From the NCBI GenBank assembly GCA_027064085.1, contig JAMOQH010000141.1, forward strand, positions 23,429 through 87,428: a DNA stretch of 64,000 nt. The letters are read 5' to 3'. The DNA is from a bacterium (GTDB taxonomy: Bacteria > UBP6 > JAFGXH01). Below, piece after piece: positions 35,907 through 62,836 of this stretch (its first letter is position 1; every line of letters starts with the position of its first letter). The notes below the pieces were generated by a model. It made no database searches. It was not told the DNA's origin and saw only the letters and a program-made list of their open reading frames with translations. Position numbers and translations under genes: made by a program.

Positions 35907-36791
35907 TTAAATATTATTTTTCAATAAAACATCATACTCTTTTAACTTCTTATTTAGCTTCTTTATATCATAAATAACATCATCTGCCAAATTTAATAAA
36001 TTCCTATCAAGACTCTTGCTTGTGTCCATATTATCAAGAGTTTCATTTAAGGCATTTAAAATATCAGAATTTGATTTATTATGTATTTTTGAAATCTTTA
36101 AAATTTCATTTGCATTTTCTTTTAAATTCACCACCTGCTTTTCAATATTTACAGTTATATTTTTTGAGATGTTATTTGTTTGTAAAATCAGCTTATTAAT
36201 ATCATTTTCTTTGATATTTTTTTCTATTTTTTTTAATTCTTCTATATTTTTTTTAATTTTTGATAAATTTTCATTTTCTTTTTTTAGTCTTTTCTCCACA
36301 CTGATTAATTCTTCATTTTGCTTTAAAACAGTGTTATACTTTTCAATAACATCATCAATATTTTTTTTCTTTTCAGAAATCAAAGAAATAAAATTATCAT
36401 CACTTTTATCTATTTGTGGTAATATTTTTGTAAAAAAATCAGAAATTCTTTTAGCAGAATCATATTCAAGAGTAATAACTAAGTCTTCAATATCATCAAC
36501 AGAATCAAAATCAACTTTGCAGGCAAGCTCTTCTATAAAAGTTACAAGTTTAACATAATTTTCAAATTTATCATTAGAAGTTTTTGCTTTTTTTAATTTA
36601 TCCGTTAAATTTTCAATATTTTTTATATCAGTATTTGATAAATTGCCAACAAGTATTTTTTTTTTAACACAACTGTTAGTACTTGAAGTATCCTTTCCCC
36701 TAACTTTAACATCTTTCACAACTTCTTTACTACAATTAGGACATTTATTTCCCAAATAAACAGGACTATGCCCACAATTTTTACATTTCAT
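35907..36791 (-). CDS. Zinc-ribbon plus coiled-coil protein, last gene of the large operon
   Basis: A 294-residue protein with an N-terminal zinc ribbon (Cys3, Cys6, Cys17, Cys20 in KCKNCG and KCPNC) and a long helical, coiled-coil body (for example LISVEKRLKKENENLSKI). No enzymatic motif is seen. It starts with AAGGGAAAACA before the ATG, 15 nt after the previous gene. Paired small zinc-ribbon proteins at the end of this operon may be adaptors that bind the kinase, which also carries a zinc ribbon. This is inferred from shared architecture only. The frame continues open beyond its stop for 28 codons. Confidence 0.7.
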   Translation of the reverse strand: MKCKNCGHSPVYLGNKCPNCSKEVVKDVKVRGKDTSSTNSCVKKKILVGNLSNTDIKNIENLTDKLKKAKTSNDKFENYVKLVTFIEELACKVDFDSVDDIEDLVITLEYDSAKRISDFFTKILPQIDKSDDNFISLISEKKKNIDDVIEKYNTVLKQNEELISVEKRLKKENENLSKIKKNIEELKKIEKNIKENDINKLILQTNNISKNITVNIEKQVVNLKENANEILKISKIHNKSNSDILNALNETLDNMDTSKSLDRNLLNLADDVIYDIKKLNKKLKEYDVLLKNNI

Positions 36792-36806
36792 TGTTTTCCC
36801 TTATTA

Positions 36807-37307
36807 TTATTTTTTAAACCATGAGTTAGGAAGTCTGACTTTATTTACCTTATCATCATAAAAAGAAAGTCCTACATAATCCTCCTCACCTCCATAATAC
36901 CAATAATAATCCGTAATTTGATCAGGTTTACCTAATTCCATTAAAACCGCAGCCTTACCGTAACCTTTAAAACTCTTCCAAAATTTCATTTTCTCTATTA
37001 AATCTGTTGGCACTTCAACAAGTTTTTTAGAAGAATCAGAAAATTTCTTGGCTTGTTTTGGGTTACTTAATATCTCTTCTAAATCATTTACCCTATTTTG
37101 TAATTTTTTAATATCCTCATAAATAGGGGACAAATCAACTTTACTTTTTTCTTCATTCCCTTTTGCAAGAGATACTGATTTATCATCTATGAGCATATCC
37201 TGATTTTTCTCTGGTTTAACAAAGTAAGCCTTAAAACTATTACCACATTCAAAGCAAAAATTAGCCTTATCTTCACATTTAGTATTACATTTACTACATA
37301 TTTTCAT
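36807..37307 (-). CDS. Zinc-ribbon protein with C-terminal SmpA/OmlA-like segment
   Basis: A 166-residue protein starting with a zinc ribbon (Cys4-x2-Cys7 and Cys18-x2-Cys21), then a charged linker with a short coiled coil (DIKKLQNRVNDLEEIL), then a compact C-terminal module FWKSFKGYGKAAVLMELGKPDQITDYYWYYGG followed by YVGLSFYDDKV. This last part resembles the BamE/SmpA-type beta-lactamase-inhibitor-like fold (the G-x-x-L-G-x-P pattern), normally a protein-binding module. AAGGGGG precedes the ATG. Function in the operon is unknown. Confidence 0.65.
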   Translation of the reverse strand: MKICSKCNTKCEDKANFCFECGNSFKAYFVKPEKNQDMLIDDKSVSLAKGNEEKSKVDLSPIYEDIKKLQNRVNDLEEILSNPKQAKKFSDSSKKLVEVPTDLIEKMKFWKSFKGYGKAAVLMELGKPDQITDYYWYYGGEEDYVGLSFYDDKVNKVRLPNSWFKK

Positions 37308-37316
37308 ATTTCCCCC

Positions 37317-37841
37317 TTAAAATCCTTTATAGATATCAAATCCAAGCATTATTATCAAAATAATTAATAAAAAAATCATCATATTGGTTTTTAAAGCCAA
37401 ATCATCTTTTTTCTGAATTTCATTATCTTCAGTTTCTATTTCAATAATTTCTTTTTTTTCTTTATCTATTACCCCACCTTCAATTATTTCTTCTATAACT
37501 CTTGCTTCTTTATTATCAACAGGACTAACCCTTTTATCTAATTTATCCTTTAATAAAGCCACCTTATCCTTAAATTCGTCATCTTCGTCACTAATAGCAG
37601 GAAATACAGTTTGATAAAATTTTAACAACTTTAAAGAAGTATTGTTACATTCAACAACAATATCAATAATATCATCAAGTTCATCTTCTGTTTCTATATT
37701 AGAAATATTCTCTAAATTAATATCATCTATTATAAATTTAGCAAGCTCTGCTGATAATTTATCCTTTTCTATAGAATTATCTTTCTCTTCATTCCATATT
37801 TTCCACAAACCATTAACTTGATGCTTTAAACTTTCATTCAT
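37317..37841 (-). CDS. C-tail-anchored acidic protein
   Basis: A 174-residue acidic helical protein with a single hydrophobic helix at the extreme C-terminus (NMMIFLLIILIIMLGFDIY), so probably tail-anchored in the inner membrane with the bulk in the cytoplasm. The start at 37841 is chosen because GGAG lies 8 nt upstream and because the same 25-bp initiation region precedes the neighbouring gene at 38160; an in-frame ATG 14 codons earlier overlaps the previous gene and lacks a ribosome site. It is the only clear membrane anchor in the large operon and may localise part of the complex. Confidence 0.65.
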   Translation of the reverse strand: MNESLKHQVNGLWKIWNEEKDNSIEKDKLSAELAKFIIDDINLENISNIETEDELDDIIDIVVECNNTSLKLLKFYQTVFPAISDEDDEFKDKVALLKDKLDKRVSPVDNKEARVIEEIIEGGVIDKEKKEIIEIETEDNEIQKKDDLALKTNMMIFLLIILIIMLGFDIYKGF

Positions 37842-38175
37842 TTTACATGCTCCATTTTCAATATTTATCAATTTCATCTTCAAGTATTTTTACCCTTAAT
37901 AATATTTTAGAAATCTCCTCTCTTAAGTAAAATGTCTCTGATTTTAATTTTGAAACTTCTTCATTTAATTTATGATTCGCATAAATACTATTAATTTCAA
38001 TTGTTTTCTTCTCATTTTCAGATTCAACTAATTTATACTCTAATTGCATTACCTTATACTCTAATTTCATTACAGATTTAAAATCATAATCATCAATATT
38101 CCTTGAACTTATATACTCATCTTCTGGCTCAACAAAAAATAATTTACTATTTTCATTCATTTTACATGCTCCATT
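37832..38175. repeat. Duplicated 25-bp translation-initiation region
   Basis: An identical 25-bp sequence occurs at 37832-37856 and 38151-38175. In both places it provides the GGAG site and the ATG-AAT-GAA start of a small gene. At 38151-38175 it also encodes the last codons of the Hsp70 gene, so the other copy is probably a duplicate of the Hsp70 3' end. The 319-bp period equals the 100-residue gene between them. Confidence 0.85.
37858..38160 (-). CDS. Small coiled-coil protein
   Basis: A 100-residue, strongly helical protein with heptad-like repeats (KLEYKVMQLEYKLVESENEK and later FYLREEISKILLRVKILEDEI). No enzymatic motif. It starts MNENSKLFF with the ATG overlapping the Hsp70 stop (ATGA), so it is co-translated with Hsp70. 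It could be a co-chaperone-like or oligomerisation partner; this is inferred from context. Confidence 0.6.
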   Translation of the reverse strand: MNENSKLFFVEPEDEYISSRNIDDYDFKSVMKLEYKVMQLEYKLVESENEKKTIEINSIYANHKLNEEVSKLKSETFYLREEISKILLRVKILEDEIDKY

Positions 38176-39719
38176 AAATCACCTAAATTTATTTTATTTT
38201 CTTTTCCTTCATTTTTATCTTTAATGTGAATATAATAACATCTATTTTCATCCATAGAAAATGCTATTTGCCATTTATTTCCCCATACAGGATTGGGTAA
38301 ATACTTACTTAAAGGAGATAATTCAAAAGGAATATGACCATTTTCAGAATCAATAAAAAGCTTCATTGACCTCTTAAAGGCATCCCTATTAGGCAAACCG
38401 ATATACTCTTCCTTATAATTTGCAATTTTAGAATCTTTTAAAGAAATACCTTTATTTAAAGAAATAAAATCAACTTTATTTTTATTTTCATCATAAGTTG
38501 TAATTCCAATACTCAAAGGTACAACAGTATCCAGCGATATTAATCCAGCTGATAAAATAGCAGCCCCTTTCGCTATTGCAAGGTTTTTATCACTGTCAAT
38601 AAAAGTAGAATCAAATCTAAAATCAGTTGATGCAACCGATGAAAAGAAATCCATAATAGTTTTTTCTACTAAATAGAAATTACAGAATCCACCAACAAGT
38701 AAAACCCTAAATTTATCAGGATTATTTACATCAATATTATGACTAGAAAATGTTTTTGAGATTTCATCAAGTTTTTCTATTATGATATTTTTTATTTTAT
38801 CATCAAAAACCTTACATAAATTACTAGGTTTACAAGGATTTCCACTTACAGTAAATAATTTTCTATTTCTAGATTGCTCTTTTAAATAACGAGGAATATT
38901 TTTATCCAAAGTAGTTTTTTGACTAATTTTTTTGTACTCAAAATCTATAATTGCCTCATAATATTCCTCACTTGAAGAGTGGACATAATTATTTTCTTCA
39001 AAAATATTTTGAACAACTGCATCATCATAGGCAACCCCTGCACTCCCTAATGATTCATGAGTTAATTTGCCTGCACCACTTGATTCAAGTATTTTTACTT
39101 CTGCTTTACTTAATTTTGATAAACTAATATCAAGAGTTCCACCTCCAAAATCACAAACAAGTAAATGCCCTGTAAAATGAGTATTGTAATTTTTATGATA
39201 TAAATATGAATAATAAGCAGACGCAGCAACAGGCTCACTTACAAGTTTAACATTTTGTCCTATATTTTTCTTGCATATTTCTAGTAAAGTTTCACGCCCT
39301 TTATGATTTCCATCTTTAAGCCATATTTCAGGAACTGTAACAGTAAAACTCTTTATATCACTTTTAGAAAATTTTTGTGTTTTGCAATATTCATCAATAA
39401 GATATGAAATATATTTTTCAGCTATTTCTACTGGTGTTTCTTTAGAATTTTCAGGCCAGTCAAACTCCTCTAAAATATCAGAATCAGTTTCCTGTAAAAG
39501 CATTTTAAACTTTGAATAAACATCATATTCAGTATTTCCTGTTTTACCTTTTGCATCATCTCCAATTGAGATATCACCATCTTCTTTAGAAACAGCAAAG
39601 TAAGAAGGAATATACTTTTCCATTGAGGCTAATTCAAAATTCATTATACTATCGGTATTTTCATCATAATATGCAATAATACTATTTGTAGTTCCAAAAT
39701 CTAATCCTATATTTTTCAT
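38157..39719 (-). CDS. Hsp70/DnaK-family chaperone-like ATPase
   Basis: The 520-residue protein has an actin/Hsp70 ATPase domain: phosphate-1 loop DFGTTNS (residues 7-13), VSEPVAAS, the phosphate-2 loop DFGGGTLDIS starting at Asp190, and the adenosine motif LLVGGFCN around 335. The first roughly 400 residues match the ATPase domain and the remainder is a short, divergent substrate-binding domain without the long lid, so it is clearly shorter than housekeeping DnaK (about 640). No dnaJ or grpE is nearby. It lies between a double AAA+ ATPase and small coiled-coil/zinc-ribbon genes in the 18-gene operon and probably serves assembly or regulated disassembly of that system. Confidence 0.88.
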   Translation of the reverse strand: MKNIGLDFGTTNSIIAYYDENTDSIMNFELASMEKYIPSYFAVSKEDGDISIGDDAKGKTGNTEYDVYSKFKMLLQETDSDILEEFDWPENSKETPVEIAEKYISYLIDEYCKTQKFSKSDIKSFTVTVPEIWLKDGNHKGRETLLEICKKNIGQNVKLVSEPVAASAYYSYLYHKNYNTHFTGHLLVCDFGGGTLDISLSKLSKAEVKILESSGAGKLTHESLGSAGVAYDDAVVQNIFEENNYVHSSSEEYYEAIIDFEYKKISQKTTLDKNIPRYLKEQSRNRKLFTVSGNPCKPSNLCKVFDDKIKNIIIEKLDEISKTFSSHNIDVNNPDKFRVLLVGGFCNFYLVEKTIMDFFSSVASTDFRFDSTFIDSDKNLAIAKGAAILSAGLISLDTVVPLSIGITTYDENKNKVDFISLNKGISLKDSKIANYKEEYIGLPNRDAFKRSMKLFIDSENGHIPFELSPLSKYLPNPVWGNKWQIAFSMDENRCYYIHIKDKNEGKENKINLGDLMEHVK

Positions 39720-39730
39720 TATTCTCCCTT

Positions 39731-42361
39731 TTATAATCTTTCTGGAATATCCTCTGCTAATAATTTTACTAAATCATCTTTTGATAAATCCACATTTTCA
39801 TTTTCTAAAATTCTTTCTCCCAAATTTTCTACCATTAAATTAAAACAATTAATCGCATCACCTGCATTTCCAAAATTTTCTTTTTTTAATTTCTTTGTTT
39901 TTAAAAATAAATCAAGTAAAGCCTGCTTTAATCTTTCATCAAGAATATATTCCTGCTTTTTTGCATAATTTTTTATAACAGTAAATAATTCATCAGAAGT
40001 AAAATCATCAAAGATTATTTTTCTTGAAAATCTTCTGTCTAGCCCCGAATTATTATTTAAGAAATTATTCATTTCTTTTGAATAACCTGCACCTATAATT
40101 AACAAATTTCCATTATATTTAGTCATTGCAGGCACTAATACATTATTAATAACATCTTTTCCATAGCTTTCTCCTAAACTTCCCTCTGTTAAGCCATAAA
40201 TTTCATCAATAAATAATATCCCACCCATAGCATCTTCTATTAATTTCTGGGCTTTAACTTCACTATCTCCAACAACATTAGCTATTAAATCTTTTGCACT
40301 AACATCAAGTAATTTATCAGATGGTAAAACCCCTAGTCCATTTAGTAGTTTTCCCATTAACCTAGCCACAGTTGTTTTTCCAGTTCCAGGATTTCCAATA
40401 AATAGCATATGCAAATTTTGATTTTTTAAAACTTTAAGTCCTTTCTTTTCACGAATTTTATTTAACTTAACTCCCTTTATTAATTTATTAATTTGATTTT
40501 TAACAGAATTTAACCCTGTCATAGAATTCAACTCTTCTAAAACCTCTTCAAAGGAGCTTTTACTATTTATAGAAATGTATTTTCTCATAAAATTAGGAAT
40601 ATCATCTAAAATAAATTTATTTATATCTATTTTTTCATTATTTTTACTATTTCTTATTCGTTTTCTTCGTTTATTATCCATCCCTTTATAAACATCTTCT
40701 TTTACAGCTCTTGCATTCCCAAAATCTTCATCACTTTGATTTGCTGCATGCCATTTATTAATAATTAAAGGTAATTTTTTAGATAATTCATCAGTCATAT
40801 TTTTTTTATTTTTTAAAATAGTATCTTTTAAAATCTCATACAACACATCAGAGTTAAAATTAGGAATTGTAATTATATTGTGTTCTGAAAACCTTGACTT
40901 AAAGCCTGGATTAGAATTAATAACCTCATCAATGTGCTTAGGATATCCTGCAAAAATTACAGAAAACTCACCTTTATGATTTTCCATAGCCTCAAGTATT
41001 GTTTCAAGAGCTTCCATTCCGAAATCATTTTCTCCACCCTGTAATAAACGATATGCTTCATCAACAAAAAGTATTCCTCCCATAGCCTGATTTATTAATT
41101 GTGAAGTTTTTATAGCAGTATGTCCAACATAAGCAGCAACTAAATCTTCTCTAGAAGCTTTTACAAGATGCCCTAATTTTAATAAACCATTTTCTCGAAA
41201 TATTTCACCAAGCAATCTAGCAATAGTTGTTTTACCTGTTCCAGGAGAGCCTTTTAAGGCAAGATGTAAGTTTATAGCTATTGTTTTCTTTTTATTTACC
41301 GAAACTCTATCAAGAAAAAAATGAGGAATTTTTATTATTTCAGCCTGTATATTATCAGCCCCCCCCCTTAATTCATTAATTTCATCAATAAAATCATCAA
41401 TTTTATCTTTAATAACATTGATTCCACGCATTTTAGATAATTTTTCTGCTGCTGATTCTTCATTGAGAGTTACACCTGAAAGCTCTGTAAAAGTTTTTTC
41501 AGAAAAGTCTTTTTTTTCATTTAATATTCTTGCAAATTCCTGTAAAGATATTTTATTAGAAACAGAATAAGATGTTATTTTAGGTAAATACTCATCAAAC
41601 ATAGCCCAATCTATTTTATAATCATACTTAATTCTATAATAATTAATTGTATTTTTAATCTCATCAATAAGAGGATAACTTACAGGATAAACAGAATCAG
41701 ATAAATGATTATTTAAATTAAACATTTTTGAATATAAAAACTGCCATTGCTGATTTCTTTGAAATATTAATTCAAATTGCTCTCCTTGTAAATCAGGTAA
41801 AATAAAAATACAAATATTATTATTTTCATGTCCAAAATTTAACCAACTAGTAAAATTTGCAGCCATCTGCCTTCTTGCATTAGCTTCAAAATTATTAAAA
41901 AAATCAAAAGCATCAGATAATATTACCGCAGTTTTAATTTCTTTTTGTTGCATTATTTCATCTAGTTTTGCAACAACATTTAAGTCATTCATTAATCCAA
42001 AAGAGTAAACTCCGTTTCTTGTATTTAAATTATTTTTAGCTATAGTATCTTTTGATGCCTTTGCTAACAAAAGCCCTCTTTTTCCTAAAGGACCTTTAGG
42101 TATTAAACTATTTGTTTTTAATTTTTTTTCAAATTTCTTTTTAGAGTCTAAAATTATATCATAAGATGTCTTTTCATAAGTATATATTTTATTTTTGGGA
42201 TTATATAAGGCAATTCTCTCATATCCTTTTGATTTTAATTGATAAAAAATTAATTCATCAAGTTTCCTAAATTTTAAATCATCAGAGCAGTATTCATCAT
42301 GAGTATTTCCATATAAGAAAAAAAAACGCTCATGAATATTTTCAAAAAAAGATTTTCTCAT
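39731..42361 (-). CDS. Double AAA+ ATPase of the CbxX/CfqX (SpoVK) type
   Basis: An 876-residue protein with an N-terminal region of about 300 residues related in layout to an inactive ATPase or nuclease module (VKTAVILSDAFDFFNN), followed by two CbxX/CfqX-like AAA+ domains. Walker A motifs are GSPGTGKT at 371-378 and GNPGTGKT at 656-663; Walker B motifs read GGILFVDEAYRL and GGILFIDEIYGL; arginine-finger segments are FKSRFSEH and LDRRFSRK. Relatives include Rubisco activase CbxX, ESX-secretion EccA and sporulation SpoVK, all of which remodel protein complexes. A G9 tract at 41359-41367 sits just before the first AAA+ domain, so a one-base slip would remove both ATPase domains. The ribosome site is weak. 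Confidence 0.88.
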   Translation of the reverse strand: MRKSFFENIHERFFFLYGNTHDEYCSDDLKFRKLDELIFYQLKSKGYERIALYNPKNKIYTYEKTSYDIILDSKKKFEKKLKTNSLIPKGPLGKRGLLLAKASKDTIAKNNLNTRNGVYSFGLMNDLNVVAKLDEIMQQKEIKTAVILSDAFDFFNNFEANARRQMAANFTSWLNFGHENNNICIFILPDLQGEQFELIFQRNQQWQFLYSKMFNLNNHLSDSVYPVSYPLIDEIKNTINYYRIKYDYKIDWAMFDEYLPKITSYSVSNKISLQEFARILNEKKDFSEKTFTELSGVTLNEESAAEKLSKMRGINVIKDKIDDFIDEINELRGGADNIQAEIIKIPHFFLDRVSVNKKKTIAINLHLALKGSPGTGKTTIARLLGEIFRENGLLKLGHLVKASREDLVAAYVGHTAIKTSQLINQAMGGILFVDEAYRLLQGGENDFGMEALETILEAMENHKGEFSVIFAGYPKHIDEVINSNPGFKSRFSEHNIITIPNFNSDVLYEILKDTILKNKKNMTDELSKKLPLIINKWHAANQSDEDFGNARAVKEDVYKGMDNKRRKRIRNSKNNEKIDINKFILDDIPNFMRKYISINSKSSFEEVLEELNSMTGLNSVKNQINKLIKGVKLNKIREKKGLKVLKNQNLHMLFIGNPGTGKTTVARLMGKLLNGLGVLPSDKLLDVSAKDLIANVVGDSEVKAQKLIEDAMGGILFIDEIYGLTEGSLGESYGKDVINNVLVPAMTKYNGNLLIIGAGYSKEMNNFLNNNSGLDRRFSRKIIFDDFTSDELFTVIKNYAKKQEYILDERLKQALLDLFLKTKKLKKENFGNAGDAINCFNLMVENLGERILENENVDLSKDDLVKLLAEDIPERL
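41359..41367 (-). repeat. G9 homopolymer in the double-AAA+ gene
   Basis: Nine consecutive G on the coding strand encode Arg332-Gly333-Gly334 and the first base of Ala335. In a genome this AT-rich, a G9 run in a coding sequence is unusual and is the typical form of a slipped-strand phase-variation tract. It could also be a sequencing hot spot. Confidence 0.8.
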
Positions 42362-42363
42362 CT

Positions 42364-43671
42364 TTATTTACTAAGCTTTGTTTTAAATTTTTCAAAATCA
42401 AGTTTTGTTTCATCTTGACATGATTTATCTTCTGTACCTGCCTTACAAACAGGAGTAGAACACTCAACACCTAAATACTGGGTTGTTTCGAGAATCTCCT
42501 TTAATCTTTCCTGTCTATAATTCTCATCATTTCTACTTCTATCAAAAAATGAAACATTAATACTATTTCTAATACTATCCTCTGATTCCTCCGGAGAATA
42601 TTTTATAACAATTTCATCATCTCCCATTCCAAACTTAATATGTAAGGGGTTTCTTAAATCCTCCTTTTCATAAATAGCTTCTTTTAGCACCCAGCCTTTT
42701 TGTTCAAATTTAGATGCAAGTACCTCTGCAAGATCTCCTCTTACCTGAGAAGAAAATACTGAATTTCTAGCTTTATTAACGGTCGTTTCAATTTTATTCT
42801 CATATTCATTTATTTCTTTAGCCATTATTTCTAAATTTTCCAAAGAAAGATTATTTTTATCTTTTTTAAAATTATCTTTAATTTCATTTAGCTCTTTTAA
42901 GAGTAATGAAATATCTCCTTTACTCCAATAATCAACATCAACATCAAATTTTTCAACTCCGTTACTTGTATTAAACTCAAATTCAACATTTTTACTATTT
43001 TCACAATTATCAATAAAATCTTTAATATCAACTTCAATATTTTCATAAAGAATATTCCATTCTGCTTCTTTAAGTTCAAGCTCCATTCTTAATTGCTGTG
43101 CATCAAGAAAAATATTTTGTGCACTTGAAACAGCTGCCTGATAAATGCCATTGTTTATATTTGAAACAACAGATGTATTTACTTTTTGAATTAACTGATT
43201 TAACTGACCTGGCATAAATTTATCATGACGATAGTTTTGTTCAATAAATTCGAGTAATTTACTTGTATCACTTAACCATTGATTAGCAAGCTCAAGTGAT
43301 TTAATTTCAGTATCTTGTAATGCACCGATTTGAGATTGTAATTGACTTGTAACATTACTAAACTCATTTGATAAATTCTTTAACTCCACTCTTAAATTTT
43401 TGATATCACTAGATTGAGCCTTTAGTTTATTATTAAAATTACTCTTCATGTTATTTATTGTATTAATATGATTTTTTTCCATATTTTTTATATTAGATGA
43501 TAAAGAATCAATATATTTCTTTTGAGTATTTAAGTTTTTTTGCAATTCCTTATTTCTTTGTCTAGTCTGCTCATCTCTATATTCATTTCTATTATTTCTT
43601 CTTTGATTTCTACTGTTACTACCAAAAATCGAACCAAAAATATTCCCAATAAAATCTAATTCTCCACTCAT
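42364..43671 (-). CDS. Coiled-coil protein of unknown function
   Basis: A 435-residue protein. Residues 30-110 form a long coiled coil (for example SSDIKNLRVELKNLSNEFSN), followed by a helical middle and a C-terminal globular part (RGDLAEVLASKFEQKGWVLKEAIYEKED, then DDEIVIKYSPEE) ending with three cysteines (CSTPVC and SCQDE). I do not recognise the family. The start at 43671 has GGGAGAGG upstream; an in-frame TTG at 43683 would include the ribosome site. Located between the radical-SAM and double-AAA+ genes, it may be a structural subunit. Confidence 0.65.
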   Translation of the reverse strand: MSGELDFIGNIFGSIFGSNSRNQRRNNRNEYRDEQTRQRNKELQKNLNTQKKYIDSLSSNIKNMEKNHINTINNMKSNFNNKLKAQSSDIKNLRVELKNLSNEFSNVTSQLQSQIGALQDTEIKSLELANQWLSDTSKLLEFIEQNYRHDKFMPGQLNQLIQKVNTSVVSNINNGIYQAAVSSAQNIFLDAQQLRMELELKEAEWNILYENIEVDIKDFIDNCENSKNVEFEFNTSNGVEKFDVDVDYWSKGDISLLLKELNEIKDNFKKDKNNLSLENLEIMAKEINEYENKIETTVNKARNSVFSSQVRGDLAEVLASKFEQKGWVLKEAIYEKEDLRNPLHIKFGMGDDEIVIKYSPEESEDSIRNSINVSFFDRSRNDENYRQERLKEILETTQYLGVECSTPVCKAGTEDKSCQDETKLDFEKFKTKLSK

Positions 43672-43689: not shown

Positions 43690-44295
43690 TTAATTTATAA
43701 ATTTACTATTCCATTCTTTTAAAAATTTCTTTCCAGGAACTCCCGAAAAATGTATTTTATCTTTTTTAAAAAACATTTCTATCTTTCTTCCGTTTACCCC
43801 ATATAAGTCAAGATAATTTTCATATCTACAAGATAAGGGAATAATCTTCTGATTTGAAGACCCCCTTAAACTTTTTCCATCATCTAATTTGCTATTATAT
43901 TCACCATCAATCAACAAATCAATATTTTTTAATAAATTATTTATATCTTCATTATTTTTTATTTTCAACTCCTCTAAAGTATATCCAGTATATAAAATAA
44001 TACCATAATCATTTATCTTTTTTAAGTTATTAATAAGAATATTCAGATTTTTTGCCTGTAAAAAAGGCTCCCCTCCACTTATTGTTAAACCTTCAATATT
44101 TTTATTTTCTGAAATTAAAGAGGTTAATTCAGGTATTTTATATTTTTTACCTCCAGTCATTGATTTAGAGCGTGGAGATAAACATCCTTCACAATTTTTA
44201 TTACAACCTTGTAACCAAATAGCAAACCTCTTAAATGGCCCTAACGTTTCTGTTTCTTCCAATAAATTATAAATTTGTAAACTTTCTTTAATCAT
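43690..44295 (-). CDS. Radical-SAM protein, NrdG-like activase family
   Basis: A 201-residue protein with the iron-sulfur-binding Cys31-x3-Cys35-x2-Cys38 (GCNKNCEGC) after IWLQG and the SAM-binding ISGGEPFLQ motif, the layout of anaerobic ribonucleotide reductase activating proteins (NrdG) and of pyruvate-formate-lyase-activating enzymes. No nrdD partner is in the window and the cell has a class II enzyme, so activation of NrdD is not the obvious role. Inside a conflict-type operon it may activate or modify another protein by glycyl-radical or related chemistry. It overlaps the DUF2357 gene by 8 bp. Confidence 0.82.
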   Translation of the reverse strand: MIKESLQIYNLLEETETLGPFKRFAIWLQGCNKNCEGCLSPRSKSMTGGKKYKIPELTSLISENKNIEGLTISGGEPFLQAKNLNILINNLKKINDYGIILYTGYTLEELKIKNNEDINNLLKNIDLLIDGEYNSKLDDGKSLRGSSNQKIIPLSCRYENYLDLYGVNGRKIEMFFKKDKIHFSGVPGKKFLKEWNSKFIN

Positions 44296-48412: not shown

Positions 48413-48416
48413 AATA

Positions 48417-56300: not shown

Positions 56301-56657
56301 TTTAAAAATTTTATCATCAACTTCAATAGATAATTTATCATCAAATTCTATTTTTCTATTAAACTTATAATATTCTATCAATAAAATTGTTTCGTTTTTA
56401 TTTTCAATATATTTTGTAATTATTGTAATAAATGGAGTATTTACCGAAATTAAATCATATATTAAATCATTATTTTTTTTATCTTTGGGCTCAACTAAAA
56501 TATGTTTTTTAGAACTTTTCACAATATAAGAATTTAGTTTATTTGAATAAAAAAGAAGTACAGGTTCGTTATTCATATTATCCAATTCATTTTGTTTTTT
56601 TACTAATACTTCAATAATTCCTTTTTCGTTTTCATATTTTATCTTACTATATTTCAT
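53310..56657 (-). CDS. Superfamily 1 (UPF1/DNA2-like) helicase
   Basis: A 1115-residue protein with an N-terminal non-catalytic part of about 420 residues and a complete SF1B helicase core: Walker A GPPGTGKTT (469-477), Walker B IIDEAARATPLDL (Asp804), motif III LVGDHRQLPH, motif V IGSIDAFQGREFDVVLLS, and motif VI RLCVAMSRQKK. This is the UPF1/Dna2/Nam7 group, 5'-3' translocases on RNA or DNA. It lies between the TerY-P kinase and the double-HEPN protein, with an 8-nt gap and a 1-nt overlap respectively. Comparable helicases are frequent in prokaryotic defence loci and could unwind or sense invading nucleic acid. Confidence 0.92.
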   Translation of the reverse strand: MKYSKIKYENEKGIIEVLVKKQNELDNMNNEPVLLFYSNKLNSYIVKSSKKHILVEPKDKKNNDLIYDLISVNTPFITIITKYIENKNETILLIEYYKFNRKIEFDDKLSIEVDDKIFKEIELKYLPTLKNLSTNESKDKCYKFLKDEFWLKKVDDNKNQYIFLSKGVNDDLKNSDENESFRLYGDKIIADIGNINGKFILQRITQNRYFSENSKENIIIAVCEMEFTDTATDIRRNSKKQLEELSKAGESLLDSWRIYNKIEKEELDEKIINIGCFEYDSFWVENDNYILKILEKDNIGEKLKNTKKYLDNRDPLNLSIADVIPEEIGLLLSNSDEKVENKTFFKNNIMINPIKYKIDLTNLTIKFTLKDNEEKKIPEIGYIFYSYIGDKVANERRKKAHDNIFTSKNPMPQLAQILEGISTVDVRVKKIKAISSKLRKKMESQPPTKSQLEAIKVALNTPDIAIIQGPPGTGKTTVITAIIERLAEEVEKTSIQKLNDLVLVSSFQHDAVENATDRIKINGIPAIKLGGKDKDIISASRRITNKWIEEQEVILSSKLEALPPDSIYKKLRLKVNSYLQTPGNSIQTFDLLKGIKNDINGRNLISNKLMSLLTKEIVNMENESKTKGSRDTRLIKLIRGLRIHKVSFADDGFVKSYNLLKYMESRDIISILHKEELNILKRSLEHSFPESPKFLKDLELLKENLLDRCIPSKKSSFDYMENKNISILLTDILDEVNQKLLKTKTGEASILAEYLDDIQFDPQGVMEMLAHYTSVLAASCQQADSSKMQKIKNNDLIYDTVIIDEAARATPLDLLIPMAQAKRRIILVGDHRQLPHIVEDSILAKMENSISENTENDINIEEKLKESLFEKLFKNLKELERTTGVKRCVTLDKQFRTTPVLGDFVSKNFYECHNEPHIESGMPIERLQHNLQNYNSKSVAWIDVPLIAGKEQSGQSKSRLVEAKIIAKEINNLITENSKLTYGVITFYAAQRDLIKEEIIKMGINLEDLENDDKLRIGSIDAFQGREFDVVLLSITRSNDFKSNTEKDSRKKYGFMTFPNRLCVAMSRQKKLLVAVGDSKMFETAVAQVAIPQMYEFNKLCKGEEGVFRNYKEVL

Positions 56658-56665: not shown

Positions 56666-58090
56666 TTAAAATTTTACGAATGTAATAACACGATGATAAT
56701 TTTTTTCACTATCAAAATGAATCATTAAATCATCTTCTCTATTTGGTATTAAAAAATTATGTTTCCGTTTAATCAAAACTTTATCTTTCATATTTTTAGA
56801 TGCAATAAAATACCTTCCTCTATCAAGATTACTTATAAGTATTTCATTTTTCTGTGCATTATATTCAAGACTTAATTTATTTTCAGAATTTAATCTATTT
56901 CCTGAAATAAGATACGAGTCTATATTAGTTTTTATATTTTCTGTTAAAACAATTGAAGCAATACTTGTTCCAAAACTACTTAATCCGCCCTCCCAGTCAA
57001 TTTCTTTTTTAGGAGGTAACCACGATTTTATATTTATTAATACCGTTTGTGGTTTCTTTTCTCCACATAAAGGACAGATTTCATTATTTGCATAATAATG
57101 AAATCCACATTCACAAGAAATTAAGGAATGTAACGCTTCATTTAAAACATTTTCCCATTCTACTAATGAAGGCCGCTTAAGATAATCATTAACTCCATTC
57201 TCAAATGTTTCTTTAAACAGTCGTTGCAAATTTGAACTTAAAACTAATTTTCTTGGCATACCATTCTCTGTAAAATTAGAGTTATCATTTTCATCATCAA
57301 CCCATGGTATATCTCCCTTTTGAGCCTTTTCTTCCATTTCAGGCTCACCTTCTGTTACAATATCGCCATATCGAGGATGCACTCCTGTCAGCATCCAAAA
57401 CGCAATTACAGCAAATGCATGAGCATCAGTTAATGTATTAACCCCAGAAACCCCCTTAACCAACTCTGGAGCACCATAAGGGGGAGTATATATTATTTTA
57501 TGACTCATTTTACTTTGATATTCTAAATTATCTGCATCAATTAATGAAATATAATCATCATCAATATCCTTAGATATAAAAAAATTATCAGGAGATGGAT
57601 CCGCAAAAACTAAGCCTTTGGAATGTAGCTGAGACATTGTCTCTGCGATTTTACCAAGAAGCTTTAATCTTTTTTTCAATCCCCCTGTTTCAATATATCT
57701 TTTAAAACTTTCTTCATCTTTAGGAACTAATACATCATGTTCATAGAACATTAAATCTTTTAATGGAATCATATCGTCAAGTATTTCCATAACATATCCT
57801 AAATACGGAAAGCTTAATATTGAAATAGGATATTTTATTTCTATATCATCCAATGATATATTTTTTATTTTTTTAAATGCCTCTTGCCTTTCCTTTATAT
57901 CAGACATGTTATTAAATTCAAATTTTCCACTAGGATTAGTTCTCATGAGCTTAATTGCAATCCCCTTTTCTTGAGCCAAAAACACAGCACCCTGCCCTCC
58001 CTCTCCTATTTTCTTTTCCAAATGATAAACTCTTCCATTTTCATCAGTAAGAGTTAAAGGGAAATCATTTATTTTCCTATTTTCTAACAT
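56666..58090 (-). CDS. TerY-P-type Ser/Thr kinase with zinc ribbon
   Basis: A 474-residue soluble kinase. Glycine loop GEGGQG (29-34), ATP lysine Lys47, catalytic loop FADPSPDN (Asp164, with Ser166 in the place of the usual Lys, Asn169), metal-binding IDADNL instead of DFG, and a PPYGAPELV activation segment. A zinc ribbon (CECGF, then CPLCG) follows at about 330-355, and a C-terminal FHA-like beta domain ends the protein (LISNLDRGRYFIASKN). These atypical motifs are those of the kinase in TerY-P triads. It sits directly after the PP2C and vWA genes, as in those triads, which have been reported as an anti-phage system. It probably phosphorylates a partner in the operon. Confidence 0.88.
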   Translation of the reverse strand: MLENRKINDFPLTLTDENGRVYHLEKKIGEGGQGAVFLAQEKGIAIKLMRTNPSGKFEFNNMSDIKERQEAFKKIKNISLDDIEIKYPISILSFPYLGYVMEILDDMIPLKDLMFYEHDVLVPKDEESFKRYIETGGLKKRLKLLGKIAETMSQLHSKGLVFADPSPDNFFISKDIDDDYISLIDADNLEYQSKMSHKIIYTPPYGAPELVKGVSGVNTLTDAHAFAVIAFWMLTGVHPRYGDIVTEGEPEMEEKAQKGDIPWVDDENDNSNFTENGMPRKLVLSSNLQRLFKETFENGVNDYLKRPSLVEWENVLNEALHSLISCECGFHYYANNEICPLCGEKKPQTVLINIKSWLPPKKEIDWEGGLSSFGTSIASIVLTENIKTNIDSYLISGNRLNSENKLSLEYNAQKNEILISNLDRGRYFIASKNMKDKVLIKRKHNFLIPNREDDLMIHFDSEKNYHRVITFVKF

Positions 58091-58097
58091 TTTTTTC

Positions 58098-58808
58098 CTA
58101 TATAAATTTTAATACACCAATTGTTTTATCATCACCACTAAAAGGGGTAGGCCAATTTTCTAATTCATCTTTTAAAATACGCCATCTTTTTTGAGGAAAT
58201 TCATCACTAATATTTAATATATATTCAGAAAATTCCAAATATTTATCTTTTAGCAAATCATCTGCAACTCCATCAGTGGCAAGTATTATTCCTTTTATAT
58301 CATCGGTAATGTCAAATTCATTAATTATCCATTTATCAATATTCCATGTACTTCCAAGAGCATAAGTTTCATTTCCGAATCCTTCTCTTTCTTTAGATAA
58401 ATTACTAGCATATTTACCTCTATTTACTAGAATAATACCATCGCCAAGTTGTGCAGTTATTAATTTACCATTATTTAAAGCCAAAGCAAAAAGAATTGTT
58501 GAACATGATTCCTTATCACTATATTTTACCGAAACTAATGAAGTCCACATTGTTTGTAAAATCATTAATAAATGCCTTACATTAGAAGATTTATTTTTAT
58601 ACCAGTAATTAACAGCATCATAACTAGCCTTACAAGCCATCTTTGAACCAAACTCAGAAAATTTTTTAGACCCCATTCCATCGGCAACAACTACTAAAGA
58701 ACCAAAAAAATATTTATAAGAAAACCAAGCATCCTGATTTGGCAAATTGTTTTTTTTATGCATTTCACCTTTAGATGAATAGCCATACATTATAAATTTA
58801 GAACTCAT
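58098..58808 (-). CDS. PP2C-type Ser/Thr protein phosphatase
   Basis: A 236-residue metal-dependent phosphatase. It has the PP2C motif series: NQDAW (about 24-28), VVADGMGS, a CSTILFAL strand, QLGDGIIL, ILATDGVADDL and GDDKTIGVL near the C-terminus, giving all metal-binding aspartates. It is the natural counterpart of the kinase encoded immediately downstream and part of the TerY-P triad. AAGG precedes the ATG 2 nt after the vWA gene. Confidence 0.93.
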   Translation of the reverse strand: MSSKFIMYGYSSKGEMHKKNNLPNQDAWFSYKYFFGSLVVVADGMGSKKFSEFGSKMACKASYDAVNYWYKNKSSNVRHLLMILQTMWTSLVSVKYSDKESCSTILFALALNNGKLITAQLGDGIILVNRGKYASNLSKEREGFGNETYALGSTWNIDKWIINEFDITDDIKGIILATDGVADDLLKDKYLEFSEYILNISDEFPQKRWRILKDELENWPTPFSGDDKTIGVLKFI

Positions 58809-58810
58809 TT

Positions 58811-59539
58811 TTATGACCTTTTAAAAAAAACTTCAGCTTCTTTATTTTTATTCAAATCTCTACTTTGAGCCCTTGTTGTAACACTCATTGTAACAAACTT
58901 AAAAAACTCATATATTTTATCAGCATCATCAGCTTTAAAAACACTTTTACTATCATCGGCTAAAAACTCTTTTAACATCGCTTCACCAGAATCATCTCCA
59001 ATAAACATCGCCATTCTATCTGCTTTTTTCGCCCTTTCAGAATTCAACAATTTTTTTAATTCTTCTTTCCAATTATCATTTGGCTCTCCATCTGATATTA
59101 ATACAATTGCAGGAGTATAGGCTCGACTAGATATTTTACTTTTATCTTCAAGTAATTTTCTTGCAACATTAAAAGCCTTTCCCATTGGAGTAAGCCCAGA
59201 AGCTGTCATATCTTCCCACAAGATGTCTTTAACAGCTCTAAGCGAGGTATGGATTTTTGCATTATCACCCCCAAAAGTAATAATTGAAACTTGTATTTCT
59301 GCACCAATTATTGTTTCATCTTTAAAAGTTTCTAACATTTTAGATAAAGATTTATTTAAACTCATCATTGCAGACATTCCACCTTTCACAATATTCCATT
59401 CTTTACCATCTTCAATAACTGTTCTTCCTGTTTTAACAATCTCTCCAGATATAACCCTATCCATACTACCACTGGTATCAATCAATATAATAACGGGTAA
59501 TGGACGTGGTTTTGATTGTGTACAAAAATTCATTACCAT
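58811..59539 (-). CDS. TerY-like von Willebrand factor A protein, copy 1
   Basis: A 242-residue single-domain vWA protein. The metal-ion-dependent adhesion site is intact: DTSGS (21-25), Thr in MTASGLTPMG and Asp in LISDGEPNDNW. The arrangement is that of TerY from tellurite-resistance/TerY-P clusters, where vWA proteins scaffold the kinase-phosphatase pair. AGGAGG lies 7 nt before the ATG. A second, shorter vWA gene is just upstream. Confidence 0.9.
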   Translation of the reverse strand: MVMNFCTQSKPRPLPVIILIDTSGSMDRVISGEIVKTGRTVIEDGKEWNIVKGGMSAMMSLNKSLSKMLETFKDETIIGAEIQVSIITFGGDNAKIHTSLRAVKDILWEDMTASGLTPMGKAFNVARKLLEDKSKISSRAYTPAIVLISDGEPNDNWKEELKKLLNSERAKKADRMAMFIGDDSGEAMLKEFLADDSKSVFKADDADKIYEFFKFVTMSVTTRAQSRDLNKNKEAEVFFKRS

Positions 59540-59541
59540 AA

Positions 59542-60108
59542 TTAAACCTCCTTTATTTTAATTTCTAAATTATTAAAAAAGTCTTTTATATACATTATAT
59601 CGCTTGCCAAAAAAACTTTATTTTTATGGGTTTTATTTACATTTTCAAGAAATTTATTAATGAAAGTTGCACCATCATCATCACCAATAAATACAGCATT
59701 AAAATTAGCTCCTTTACTAATATCTAATTTAATTAGCTCATTTACCTCATACCTCCAGTCATTAAAATCTGTAGGTGTTCCATCTGATATTAAAATCACC
59801 TCTGGATATAAACTATTCTCCAAAGCTAAATCAGAAAACATCTCCCTCATTAATTTAATTGCTTCTGAAAATTTTGTTTTACCATCTGCAATTAAAGGAC
59901 TATATTTAATTTCAGATAAAAGCTTGAAATCAAGAATAATTTCTGCCTCTGTAGAAAATGATATTATTGATAAAAAAATATCATATATTTTTACTTTCTT
60001 TAAAGAATTAATAAAATTTGAAATTGATGAATTAACAACATCAATTTTATCCCCATACATACTACCACTACGGTCAACCAATAAAAAAATAGGTAACTTT
60101 TTTTTCAT
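59542..60108 (-). CDS. TerY-like von Willebrand factor A protein, copy 2
   Basis: A 188-residue vWA protein with MIDAS residues in LVDRSGSM (Asp12, Ser14, Ser16), a Thr in DGKTKFSEA and Asp in LISDGTPTDFNDW. It shares the DGxPxDxxxW pattern with its neighbour, so the two are paralogues that probably arose by duplication, and two vWA subunits may form a heterodimer. Its ATG follows the CARF gene stop immediately; the ribosome site TTGGAG is inside that gene. Confidence 0.9.
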   Translation of the reverse strand: MKKKLPIFLLVDRSGSMYGDKIDVVNSSISNFINSLKKVKIYDIFLSIISFSTEAEIILDFKLLSEIKYSPLIADGKTKFSEAIKLMREMFSDLALENSLYPEVILISDGTPTDFNDWRYEVNELIKLDISKGANFNAVFIGDDDGATFINKFLENVNKTHKNKVFLASDIMYIKDFFNNLEIKIKEV

Positions 60109-61554
60109 TTATATCTCCAAAGTTATAAATTTTAAATCTTCAATATTCTCCTTAAAAGATACAGAATCATCAAGACCTCCATCCATAGTCTCATAAAATG
60201 CATGTAAAAATCTTTCTGCAAATTTTTCAAGTCTATTTGCATCTTTAAGTTTTAACGGGGTTGTTCCATGTGCAAGTATAGATTTATTTCTTAAACTTCC
60301 CATAGAAACAATTGTTTTTAAATTGAATTTATATTTTGCATCAAACATTTTATCTCCTAATGAAATTAAAAGAGCTGCCATATTTGCATAACCAAGCGGG
60401 TAATCTGGCAGGCTTAAGACTTTATTATCCCAACCTATCTCAGCTAAACTATCAACATATCTTTTCTCTAATTCATCCTTATTTATTTTCAAATTAGAAT
60501 AAACTGGTTTATTAATAACAATATTATACTTATTTTTTAAACGATATGCAAAGCATCCTTCCATAGCTCTATAAAAGAATAAACATGAAAAGTCATATCT
60601 TTTTAGGTTATTTTTATAAAATAATCCTAATAAATAAAAGTTCAATAACTTAGTTTTAATATCATTTTTCTGTAGACTTTCTAAAAAGTCTATTTGTTTT
60701 GTAACTTTCTTCATATCATTTTCATAAAACCCCTGCAATATAACAAAATTATCATTTAAATGCTCTTTTACATTTATTATAGACTCCATCAATTCTTCAA
60801 TATCTACATCACACCATTTTGAGTATAATTTTGATAAATCCTTTAAAAACTTTGCATATTTAGGCTCTTCTAATCTTTCTGATAATTCTAAAAACCTATC
60901 ATGTGCCTCAGAAAACTGACCTTTATTAAAAAGTACCTTCCCTCTTGTAATTTCCTCATGCCCATATAGAGTAATAGGGTTTGGCAAATAAAGTAAGTCT
61001 TCTCCACCTGGAATAGGACGACGTCTTATAGGGTCATAATTTTTACTTTCAATATAACAAATAGGCATATCTAACTGCCAAGCAACTAATCCAGCAGCAG
61101 CACTCATTATCTTTTTTCCACCAGTAATATCAACAATTGCTTTTAATTTTTCTTCATTAGTAATTTCAGAAACCTTGTTTTTAATTAATTTATATATCTT
61201 CAAAGGGTCTGTAGGATCACAAGTTAAGTGATGAAAATTACTATAACCAATCATTGGAACAACATGCTCTCCTATAATATTAATCCCCTCTGAAGTTTTT
61301 TTAGAAGAAATTACCAGCACCTGCTTAGGGTTTATTACTTTTGATGATATAATACTCGTTTCAGGAGAAAACCCTGACATTGTTATCAGCAGATCAAATT
61401 CTTTGTTTTTTACATTTTTATTATTTGCCCATCGCTCTTTTGCTAATTTAACCACATCATCCAGTAAATTTTCATAATAAAAATTATCCTTTTCTTCTTT
61501 ATTTTCTTTATCAATTGATAACCATTTTTTAATGTTTTTCTCAAATTCACTCAA
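60109..61554 (-). CDS. CARF-HEPN protein (Csm6/Csx1/Cas02710-like) without CRISPR
   Basis: A 481-residue protein. The N-terminal Rossmann-like CARF domain reads DLLITMSGFSPETSII (strand 1 and ligand loop), then IVDITGGKKIMSAAAGLVAWQLDMPICYIE, the D-x-TGGKK-M motif typical of CARF sensors of cyclic oligoadenylate. A helical middle with RYDFSCLFFYRAMEG follows, and the C-terminal end carries LRNKSILAHG, an Rx6H HEPN RNase motif (Arg422, His429). Such proteins are ligand-activated RNases, usually companions of type III CRISPR. I chose the TTG at 61554, five bases after AGGAG; a GTG at 61560 overlaps that site. No CRISPR array, Cas10 or other cyclase gene is in the window. Confidence 0.82.
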   Translation of the reverse strand: MSEFEKNIKKWLSIDKENKEEKDNFYYENLLDDVVKLAKERWANNKNVKNKEFDLLITMSGFSPETSIISSKVINPKQVLVISSKKTSEGINIIGEHVVPMIGYSNFHHLTCDPTDPLKIYKLIKNKVSEITNEEKLKAIVDITGGKKIMSAAAGLVAWQLDMPICYIESKNYDPIRRRPIPGGEDLLYLPNPITLYGHEEITRGKVLFNKGQFSEAHDRFLELSERLEEPKYAKFLKDLSKLYSKWCDVDIEELMESIINVKEHLNDNFVILQGFYENDMKKVTKQIDFLESLQKNDIKTKLLNFYLLGLFYKNNLKRYDFSCLFFYRAMEGCFAYRLKNKYNIVINKPVYSNLKINKDELEKRYVDSLAEIGWDNKVLSLPDYPLGYANMAALLISLGDKMFDAKYKFNLKTIVSMGSLRNKSILAHGTTPLKLKDANRLEKFAERFLHAFYETMDGGLDDSVSFKENIEDLKFITLEI

Positions 61555-61570
61555 TTTCACTCCTATAAGT

Positions 61571-62836
61571 TTAATGATAATTAAAAGGTAATATCTCTAT
61601 TATTTCTTTTATATTTTCAGGTAAGCATTTATTATTTATAAAAGTTCTTAACTTTTCCATTTGTGGAACAGAATATTTTAATTTATCCTCTGTTTCCTTT
61701 AGTAAATACCTTGCATCATCTAAAAAATAATTATCATCAAAACATGCAAAAGCCACCGTTGATATAACAGAACCAATTAATTTTAATGTTGCTCCAAAAT
61801 CATTTATTTTTATCATTTTAATTGAATTTTTAAAACGTTCCAAAGAATAGTTCATAAATATATCTTCTGTTCTTTGCCAACAAAATACTCCTCTATAAAG
61901 ATTTATTAACTCCCATGGATGCTGAATTTGCTCACTCCAATTTTTATAATAACTTGTATATTCACTTATTATTTCAGGATTTACCTCATCACAAAAAAAC
62001 AAGGTTCTCAAAAAAATATGATGATGATATTGTGTTTTTATATCATTAGAATTTTTAAATAATTCCAAACATTCATTTAAATCACCTATTGTATCTTCAA
62101 CAATAGAGATTCTATTAGTAAAGCCTCCATCAATAGCATTAAGTGCTCTATAGCATTTTGTTTGATCTATCTCCCCTAACTTATCAATCTCATCAATCTC
62201 AGATATATTAAATAGTTCTATTGCCTCAACAAAACATTTTTCAGCCTTTTCATAGTTTCTATTTATTGAATATGATTGCCCTAGGCTACTTTTAACCATT
62301 CCCTTCATAACAAAGGATAAATTTTCAAAATTTGAATCTAATAAAATACTAGAGTTTACATTTAAAGCAGTATCAAAATCAAACTTATCATTGTAATGAA
62401 CGACTACATTTAAATCAATATATGTAACAAGTTCAAAATCATCATTTAATAAATTAATACGATTACTTTCATAATTAGAAACTGCTTTATCTATTCTGTG
62501 AGGATCTCCACCATGATTAGCATCCTGAAGTTCAATTGCAGTCCATAATAAACTTATTTCAGCAGAAGTGTAGTTAATGTCTAAATTTGGAATTAAATAT
62601 TTAACATTTTTAAATAAAATATGTAATTTACTTAAATCCCGACTTTTAGATTGATATTTTTCTTCTAATTTTTTAATAATTTTAAATTTATAACTTTTAT
62701 CAACAATAAGTATCTTTTTTAATTCGACTAAAACTTCTTTCTTGAAATTATCATTTTGGTATATTAAGAAAAACTGAAACATCTTTTCACAATTATTTTT
62801 TAACTCTTCAACTTTACTTAATACCTTATCTTTCAT
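61571..62836 (-). CDS. Helical TPR-like protein, first intact gene of the large operon
   Basis: A 421-residue all-helical protein. TPR-like helices can be seen around residues 180-210 (SFVMKGMVKSSLGQSYSI, NRNYEKAEKCFVEAIELF). No catalytic motif is seen. AGGAG precedes the ATG, and the CARF-HEPN gene follows after 10-16 nt, so it is likely a partner or inhibitor of that RNase. The family is not recognised. Confidence 0.65.
   Translation of the reverse strand: MKDKVLSKVEELKNNCEKMFQFFLIYQNDNFKKEVLVELKKILIVDKSYKFKIIKKLEEKYQSKSRDLSKLHILFKNVKYLIPNLDINYTSAEISLLWTAIELQDANHGGDPHRIDKAVSNYESNRINLLNDDFELVTYIDLNVVVHYNDKFDFDTALNVNSSILLDSNFENLSFVMKGMVKSSLGQSYSINRNYEKAEKCFVEAIELFNISEIDEIDKLGEIDQTKCYRALNAIDGGFTNRISIVEDTIGDLNECLELFKNSNDIKTQYHHHIFLRTLFFCDEVNPEIISEYTSYYKNWSEQIQHPWELINLYRGVFCWQRTEDIFMNYSLERFKNSIKMIKINDFGATLKLIGSVISTVAFACFDDNYFLDDARYLLKETEDKLKYSVPQMEKLRTFINNKCLPENIKEIIEILPFNYH

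Follow-up and report, generated by a model that had tools for sequence, protein, structure and literature searches.

CoCoNuTs are built around McrB-type NTPases that are fused to long coiled coils and have an NxD motif (NxD rather than NxxD), after which E or D usually comes next (Bell et al., eLife 2024, PMC11090510). Few predicted RNA-targeting defence systems are as elaborate, and they were predictions only when described. Type III-A consists of the helicase CnuH, a CnuE with two HEPN domains, a coiled-coil CnuB and a nuclease-less CnuCD. It is mostly accompanied by a TerY-P triad, and sometimes by duplicated VWA genes, CARF nucleases and AAA+ extensions (PMC11090510). Here we examine an operon of 18 genes on the minus strand at positions 35907-62836 of a 64,000-nucleotide stretch of contig JAMOQH010000141.1, referred to as the window. 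Genes are numbered from g1 at the operon head to g18 at the 3' end (Table 1). With a probability of about 0.7, we read the operon as a compound antivirus locus made of a Type III-A CoCoNuT/TerY-P core, a CARF-HEPN arm in front, and a cassette of radical S-adenosylmethionine (radical-SAM), AAA+ and Hsp70 genes behind.

In Type II and III CoCoNuTs, CnuH adjoins an effector CnuE having an N-terminal winged helix-turn-helix (wHTH) domain, and CnuH of Types II and III-A has SmpB-like (SPB) and RelE-like (RTL) domains. The HEPN motifs of III-A CnuE are RxxxxH, then a C-terminal RxH. III-A CnuC contains DUF2357, no PD-(D/E)xK nuclease, Hsp70-like nucleotide-binding and substrate-binding domains, HEAT repeats and often a cold-shock domain (PMC11090510). 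Genes g3-g10 were compared with this description. The VWA (g3/g4), PP2C (g5) and kinase plus zinc ribbon (g6; CxC...CPLC, as CECG...CPLC) genes of a TerY-P triad lie next to each other, and g4 is ~40% identical to the first VWA protein of Klebsiella, Photobacterium and Pseudanabaena loci. The AAA_11/AAA_12 helicase g7 is 34-36% identical to CoCoNuT CnuH and stands beside g8, whose N-terminus is wHTH-like (wHTH-PRTase_assc 6e-4, below cut-off; MkoB-like). In g9 a long N-terminal coiled coil precedes GVSGTGKS, DEMN and TMNEDE, the last being NxD followed by E; TMNQDE or TMNEDE is also found in the III-A, III-B and III-C relatives that were fetched. The McrB/AAA_5 score of g9 is under the Pfam cut-off, yet its homology to CnuB is clear, with 39.6% identity to Klebsiella CnuB over 64% of the length. 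One coiled-coil CnuB was missed by composition-corrected BLAST and was rechecked without the correction. Finally, the alignment of g10 with the Klebsiella (III-A) CnuCD consists of several separate blocks spread over the length of g10, the IVLDTDAT region and the C-terminus among them. Its S1-like segment scores 0.032, its Hsp70-like region is putative, and a CnuCD profile compared with PDB sequences gave only an insignificant cold-shock match.

Gene order agrees with these identities. PP2C-kinase-CnuH-CnuE-CnuB-CnuCD, with at least one VWA gene in front, was found in 5/5 other III-A loci examined (L012, L013, L053, L061/L062, L077), which come from Klebsiella pKP57-mcr10, Photobacterium damselae p1, Caballeronia pSBC2-5 and genomes G022 and G635. 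By predicted architecture rather than by phylogeny, g3-g10 matches TerY-P plus a Type III-A CoCoNuT. Type III-A is a known but experimentally unproven type of antivirus system, and the core is a further member of it. An initial annotation made from the DNA alone had called CARF-HEPN, two VWA, PP2C, kinase, superfamily 1 helicase, DUF2357, radical-SAM, AAA+ and Hsp70 domains, and profile searches of Pfam, PADLOC and NCBIfam proved these calls correct. It had also known of no described system with this gene set. For g3-g10 that statement is ruled out by the match to Type III-A with TerY-P in PMC11090510. For the 3' cassette, a literature search, which had most subscription journals outside its reach, found no description of the cassette or of its junction with a CoCoNuT, and the CoCoNuT paper (PMC11090510) never uses the term "radical SAM".

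In front of the core, g2 joins a CARF domain to a HEPN domain with the motif RNKSILAH, which falls within the R-x4-6-H pattern of Csx1/Csm6 proteins. It scores 70.6 bits against NCBIfam TIGR02710, below the cut-off. This front gene is a CARF effector absent from the CoCoNuT paper (PMC11090510). Elsewhere in the same genome, contig C136 (L067) carries a Type III-B CRISPR locus comprising Cmr1, Cas10 (GGDD plus HD), Cmr3, a CARF protein, Cmr4 and Cmr5; Cas10 (PF22335, GGDD at residue 672) and the CARF protein (PF09651) were identified by profile, and the Cmr names were read from the sequences and gene order. Because the genome encodes a GGDD Cas10, a cyclic-oligoadenylate ligand for g2 is available in principle. 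The Type III-B Cas10 is thus a plausible ligand source, and the ligand of g2 would probably be a cyclic oligoadenylate that it makes.

The same CRISPR locus could account for g2 in another way, as an effector of the Type III-B system that sits at the operon head by chance and does not act with the CoCoNuT. The genome's own Cmr genes and GGDD Cas10 on contig C136 fit this account, as do the nearest plasmid-borne homologues of g2, which are Csm6/TIGR02710 CRISPR proteins of Thermus and Meiothermus. However, the CRISPR locus already has its own CARF protein, g2 is only 0-10 nucleotides (nt) from its operon neighbours, and CARF nucleases adjoin TerY-P in other III-A CoCoNuTs, both in the compared loci and in PMC11090510. 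We consider this account rather unlikely.

Behind the core, g11-g14 (radical SAM, coiled coil, tandem CbxX AAA+ and Hsp70) are a separate module, which occurs without a CoCoNuT. Genes g15-g18 probably belong to it. Plasmid pCAL6303.02 of Calothrix carries homologues of g11-g14 together (40, 29, 31 and 25% identity) and no CoCoNuT. A g12 profile found matches in 13/386 cyanobacterial genomes, the weakest few being marginal. In the annotated near-full-length loci g13 lies beside g12 or within about 2.3 kb, and several of them also carry g11, g14, zinc-ribbon coiled-coil proteins or DO-GTPase homologues. The layout of g18 is analogous to that of the zinc-ribbon coiled-coil proteins in the cyanobacterial copies. 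A related form occurs in G002, a genome from the window's own family, where a radical-SAM gene lies in a run with an MSG-type coiled coil, an AAA protein and a DFGT-motif protein; the last has no Pfam match, and the label "Hsp70-like" refers to its DFGT motif alone. No radical-SAM cassette was seen in the downstream stretches examined of the five other III-A CoCoNuTs, and a g12 profile run over 290 genomes gave no convincing full-length g12 apart from the window. A wide but insensitive scan with g12 returned one locus among genome contigs and no match among viral contigs, where a radical-SAM profile likewise found none. As for g12 itself, searches of Pfam, PADLOC, NCBIfam and PDB gave it no significant family assignment, and a structure model (2 sequences, pLDDT 74.6) matched no PDB fold at E <= 0.001. 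The structure model of the g13 N-terminal domain was too poor for use (pLDDT 52).

The radical-SAM protein g11 resembles the NrdG/PflA activases in its CxxxCxxC motif and NrdG-like Fer4_12 domain. It differs from them in its NrdG score of 107.6 bits, below the NCBIfam equivalog cut-off of 126.1, and in its setting, as no operon protein has a glycyl-radical motif (RVxGY-type). The proposal that g11 is an NrdG activating a glycyl-radical enzyme of the operon was rejected for want of that motif. The operon also has no gap big enough for a precursor peptide. With neither a glycyl-radical motif nor room for a precursor peptide, the substrate of g11 would therefore be an operon protein, a host protein or a small molecule.

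Related radical-SAM genes were found beside AAA+ and helicase genes in other operons. Among the radical-SAM matches, two further layouts were picked. The first is a five-gene operon (UPF1-like helicase, PIN protein, coiled coil, ClpX-like AAA, radical SAM) on plasmids of Moellerella, Polaromonas, Photobacterium toruni, Acinetobacter and Leisingera (L046, L047, L048, L049, L051), which has the look of a defence-type system not yet described. Profile comparison matches the g13 N-terminal domain to that of the plasmid ClpX-like AAA proteins (97% probability, E 1.2e-10), whereas the motor domains differ. The match between g12 and the plasmid coiled-coil protein is weak (E 2.9e-4, probability 40%). 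The other layout (L098, L102, L105) comprises a helicase, a protein with an HDRY-like motif, a coiled coil, a small protein and radical SAM, and 2/3 of its loci are from the window's own phylum, with one in another genome. When 18 radical-SAM loci from a 386-genome survey were inspected, an AAA gene was present in about a third of them and, within 8 kb, a helicase in three, most others having neither. The link to AAA+/helicase genes is therefore recurrent, not universal. Separately, a GNxxD-AAA gene and radical SAM stand next to FHA or zinc-ribbon proteins on an Aristaeella lactis plasmid (L050) and in L101 and L106; PP2C is also nearby in L050 and L101, and kinases in L050.

One might go further and see in radical SAM, MSG coiled coil and GNxxD-AAA+ (plus Hsp70) an undescribed, widespread accessory cassette that plugs into helicase-nuclease defence systems and arms or silences them by radical-based covalent protein modification. 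The hosts would be the CoCoNuT in the window, the helicase-PIN operons of proteobacterial plasmids and the helicase-HDRY operons of the window's phylum. We find this generalization doubtful and offer it only tentatively.

How closely the two blocks are joined in the window can be judged from their spacing and their recurrence. All 18 open reading frames (ORFs) are present on the minus strand, with intergenic distances from g1 to g18 of 10, 0, 2, 2, 7, 8, -1, 1, -32, -8, 6, 2, 11, -4, -26, 9 and 15 nt, and coding sequence makes up 99.7% of the span. No long ORF on the opposite strand suggests a competing gene, and the GC skew is uniformly negative (-0.20 to -0.42) across the block. The initial annotation had described 18 tightly packed genes with no opposite-strand gene, and had taken modules linked to conflict systems to be packed as one operon; this is upheld. 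It went on to propose one integrated system, to be checked by recurrence of the gene order. The TerY-P/CoCoNuT order and the radical-SAM block each recur. The proposal is weakened in that they recur separately, and the joined 18-gene set did not recur among the loci compared. The locus therefore looks like a compound of two cassettes.

A stronger form of this conclusion is that the TerY-P/CoCoNuT III-A (with CARF-HEPN) and the radical-SAM/AAA/Hsp70 system are unrelated defence cassettes, adjacent in a defence island and co-transcribed without joint action. Five III-A CoCoNuT loci without the cassette, many cassette loci without a CoCoNuT, and a junction unique in the sample all favour it. Yet the blocks are contiguous, with an 8-nt overlap between g10 and g11, and the radical-SAM relatives beside UPF1-like helicase pairs in two other unrelated layouts suggest a functional affinity. 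We take this form seriously, at somewhat less than even odds.

Several other points weigh against a compound locus with a III-A core. The rows nearest to g9 by path in the CnuB tree are all III-A, but the fork is not resolved and the tree does not place g9 inside the III-A clade. Both HEPN-like motifs of g8 align to III-A CnuE and the first, RxxxxH, fits; the second, RQEITH (residues 695-700), is also RxxxxH, where the III-A description and the compared CnuE proteins have RxH. This is possibly a less derived state. The Hsp70-like, SPB and RTL domains are predicted only by analogy with the type. The junction was seen in this genome alone, tight spacing is all that speaks for a functional coupling of g11-g18 to the core, and g2 could serve the separate CRISPR locus rather than the operon.

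If the compound reading holds, the coiled-coil McrB-like GTPase CnuB (g9) and the nuclease-less DUF2357/Hsp70-like CnuCD (g10) would engage viral or aberrant ribosome-associated RNA, and the UPF1-like helicase CnuH (g7) would feed it through the double-HEPN nuclease CnuE (g8). The VWA/PP2C/kinase triad would set the on-off threshold by phosphorylation. These RNA-recognition and RNA-cleavage roles, with phosphorylation control, are those predicted for this architecture (PMC11090510), and the initial annotation, which had placed phosphorylation control around an RNA-cleaving helicase/HEPN/McrB core, arrived at the same prediction. The CARF-HEPN RNase g2 may be a second, nucleotide-triggered arm of RNA cleavage. 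Genes g11-g14, probably with g15-g18, would contribute an Hsp70 and an AAA+ unfoldase whose N-terminal domain serves recognition, together with a radical-SAM enzyme of activase-like kind and adaptors with coiled coils and zinc ribbons. Together these may remodel or covalently modify a protein target, either a CoCoNuT partner or a stalled or phage protein, and so arm or reset the system. The role of g11-g18 is the least certain part. RNA would be cleaved under regulation, with abortive infection as the outcome. What was observed directly is which genes are present, their order, motifs and homology, and that each block recurs. Every activity, the ligand, the target and the antiviral role are predictions; those for RNA recognition and cleavage, phosphorylation control, the g2 arm and abortive infection draw on what is known of the protein families.

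The same parts could be viewed as a stress-response operon (tellurite/metal or proteotoxic) that is not antiviral, in which TerY-P senses metal, Hsp70 and AAA proteins rescue proteins, and RNA cleavage brings growth arrest. TerY-P triads are associated with tellurite and chemical stress (cited in PMC11090510), and Hsp70 and CbxX-type AAA proteins are chaperone-like. The CARF-HEPN, double-HEPN, McrBC-like and UPF1-like helicase parts are, however, defence-associated, and relatives are found on plasmids and in mobile contexts. A stress-response operon is quite improbable.

At the operon head, the good promoter noted earlier corresponds to a strong promoter-like site, TTGATA-N16-TATAAT, the best of five in the stretch, where chance would give 3.0 +/- 1.7 sites (>=9 matches). 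The 3' end showed no terminator-like site, and the window ends with the contig, which cuts off the operon's upstream context. The count of 18 genes holds, with one reservation: a 74-residue ORF (g0) lies between promoter and g1. It has no Pfam match and may be a 19th gene or a degenerate or frameshifted first gene. Coding-looking sequence (VSDDVRKAWGRKSVLEVALEIEE) resumes there in another frame past a CCCCTCCAAGGAGGGG palindrome, as if frameshifted. The TPR-like g1 is a possible scaffold or sensor. The larger overlaps are probably over-long start calls; g10 could start at its own Met13 and g16 at an internal ATG. Nearly all homologues of g12 begin or align at MSG, and its start was therefore moved to the ATG of MSGEL, four codons 3' of the TTG, which is probably the true start.

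Two McrB-like loci were met along the way. Plasmid pSYSX of Synechocystis PCC 6803, a laboratory model strain convenient for experimental work, has a III-C-like CoCoNuT locus (L052; McrB, DUF2357, PLD protein), and the window's own genome has a second McrB-like NTPase gene, distant from g9 (L083, contig C34:6137-7069). Viral contigs searched with a CnuB profile yielded remote McrB relatives and one III-B/III-C-like locus (L055), with no cassette.

Table 1. Genes and promoter-like site of the operon, with the profile scores or motifs behind each assignment.
Feature	Position	Strand	Assignment	Evidence
Promoter	63151..63178	-	Promoter-like site TTGATA-N16-TATAAT, operon head	11/12 consensus matches
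g0	62898..63122	-	74-aa ORF between promoter and g1	Shine-Dalgarno-like sequence
g1	61571..62836	-	TPR-like helical protein, 421 aa	TPR_1 E 3.7e-5, below cut-off
g2	60109..61560	-	CARF-HEPN ribonuclease (Csx1/Csm6 class)	Csm6 HEPN PF09670 1.8e-7; Csm6_6H 2.7e-7; PADLOC CARF_HEPN 3.3e-117
g3	59542..60108	-	Second TerY-like VWA protein, MIDAS DRSGS	VWA 2.6e-10
g4	58811..59539	-	TerY-like VWA protein, MIDAS DTSGS	VWA 1e-10
g5	58098..58808	-	PP2C phosphatase, TerY-P triad	PP2C_2 2.9e-32
g6	56666..58090	-	Ser/Thr kinase with C-terminal zinc ribbon, TerY-P triad	Pkinase 2.3e-12; zinc-ribbon motif
g7	53310..56657	-	CnuH, UPF1-like SF1 helicase	AAA_11 6.7e-30; AAA_12 1.3e-33
g8	51106..53310	-	CnuE, N-terminal wHTH-like domain and two HEPN-like motifs	RNASQH at 466, RQEITH at 695
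g9	48417..51104	-	CnuB, long N-terminal coiled coil and McrB-type NTPase	GVSGTGKS, DEMN, NxD motif TMNEDE
g10	44288..48448	-	CnuCD, DUF2357 (McrC N-terminal), no PD-(D/E)xK nuclease, S1/cold-shock-like segment, Hsp70-like region	DUF2357 4.2e-9
g11	43690..44295	-	Radical-SAM protein (Fer4_12), NrdG/PflA-like activase fold, CNKNCEGC	6.6e-30
g12	42364..43671	-	Coiled-coil protein beginning MSG, small C-terminal alpha/beta domain	Start corrected
g13	39731..42361	-	AAA+ ATPase, N-terminal GNxxD domain and two CbxX/SpoVK-type AAA domains, both with Walker A	Profiles, motifs
g14	38157..39719	-	Stand-alone Hsp70, phosphate motifs DFGT and DFGG	HSP70 1.1e-16
g15	37858..38160	-	100-aa coiled-coil protein	
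g16	37317..37883	-	188-aa protein, hydrophobic C-terminal segment, membrane-anchor-like	
g17	36807..37307	-	Zinc-ribbon and coiled-coil protein	
g18	35907..36791	-	Zinc-ribbon and long coiled-coil protein	

What is known in this operon is the type of its core, III-A with TerY-P; what is new, as far as the literature search reached, is the cassette, the junction and the CARF-HEPN front. The operon shows a new CoCoNuT extension, with a CARF-HEPN trigger arm 5' and a radical-SAM/AAA+/Hsp70 cassette 3', in a genome where a Type III CRISPR locus could provide the signal. Should defence proteins be the targets of the cassette, protein modification by radical SAM would be a testable regulatory layer in phage defence, and a radical-based control step, if true, would be one so far unknown in antiviral immunity. 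Together with the related radical-SAM/AAA sets (at least three operon layouts, several phyla), the cassette provides concrete undescribed targets and merits separate study.

The operon can be set beside several known systems. The likeness to Mokosh (MkoA/MkoB) lies in matches of g7 and the plasmid helicases to MkoA and in a weak resemblance of the g8 N-terminus to MkoB; the remaining gene set is unrelated. With the DO-GTPase conflict systems (Kaur et al. 2020, PMC7159879) the links are a DO-GTPase homologue adjoining a cyanobacterial cassette copy and an Hsp70 in some systems. The window operon has no GTPase of that system, and the searched passages of that paper hold no radical-SAM/CbxX cassette. 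Like the Csx1/Csm6 ribonucleases, g2 has CARF, 6H and HEPN segments and an R-x6-H motif, but its place is not in a CRISPR locus; it lies close to the start of an operon of TerY-P and CoCoNuT genes. The SpoVK/CDC48-like extension of the Klebsiella III-A locus (L012) likewise joins an AAA+ ATPase to a III-A CoCoNuT. It lies 5', between the VWA genes, whereas g13 lies 3' of CnuCD. The idea that g12 and g13 are the SpoVK/glycine-zipper pair of such extensions was rejected: the Klebsiella ATPase resembles g13 only locally, at the P-loop (E 7e-6), and the protein paired with it does not match g12. Closest of all is the Type III-A CoCoNuT, with which the operon shares duplicated VWA genes, PP2C, kinase-zinc ribbon, CnuH, a CnuE with two HEPN-like motifs, coiled-coil NxD CnuB and a nuclease-less CnuC that has additional domains, in the same order, CARF nucleases and AAA+ extensions being known additions. 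The window operon has CARF-HEPN instead of a 2xCARF-D-ExK or RtcR-type protein and no ATPase between the VWA genes, and it adds a radical SAM, a CbxX-type tandem AAA and a separate Hsp70 at the 3' side.

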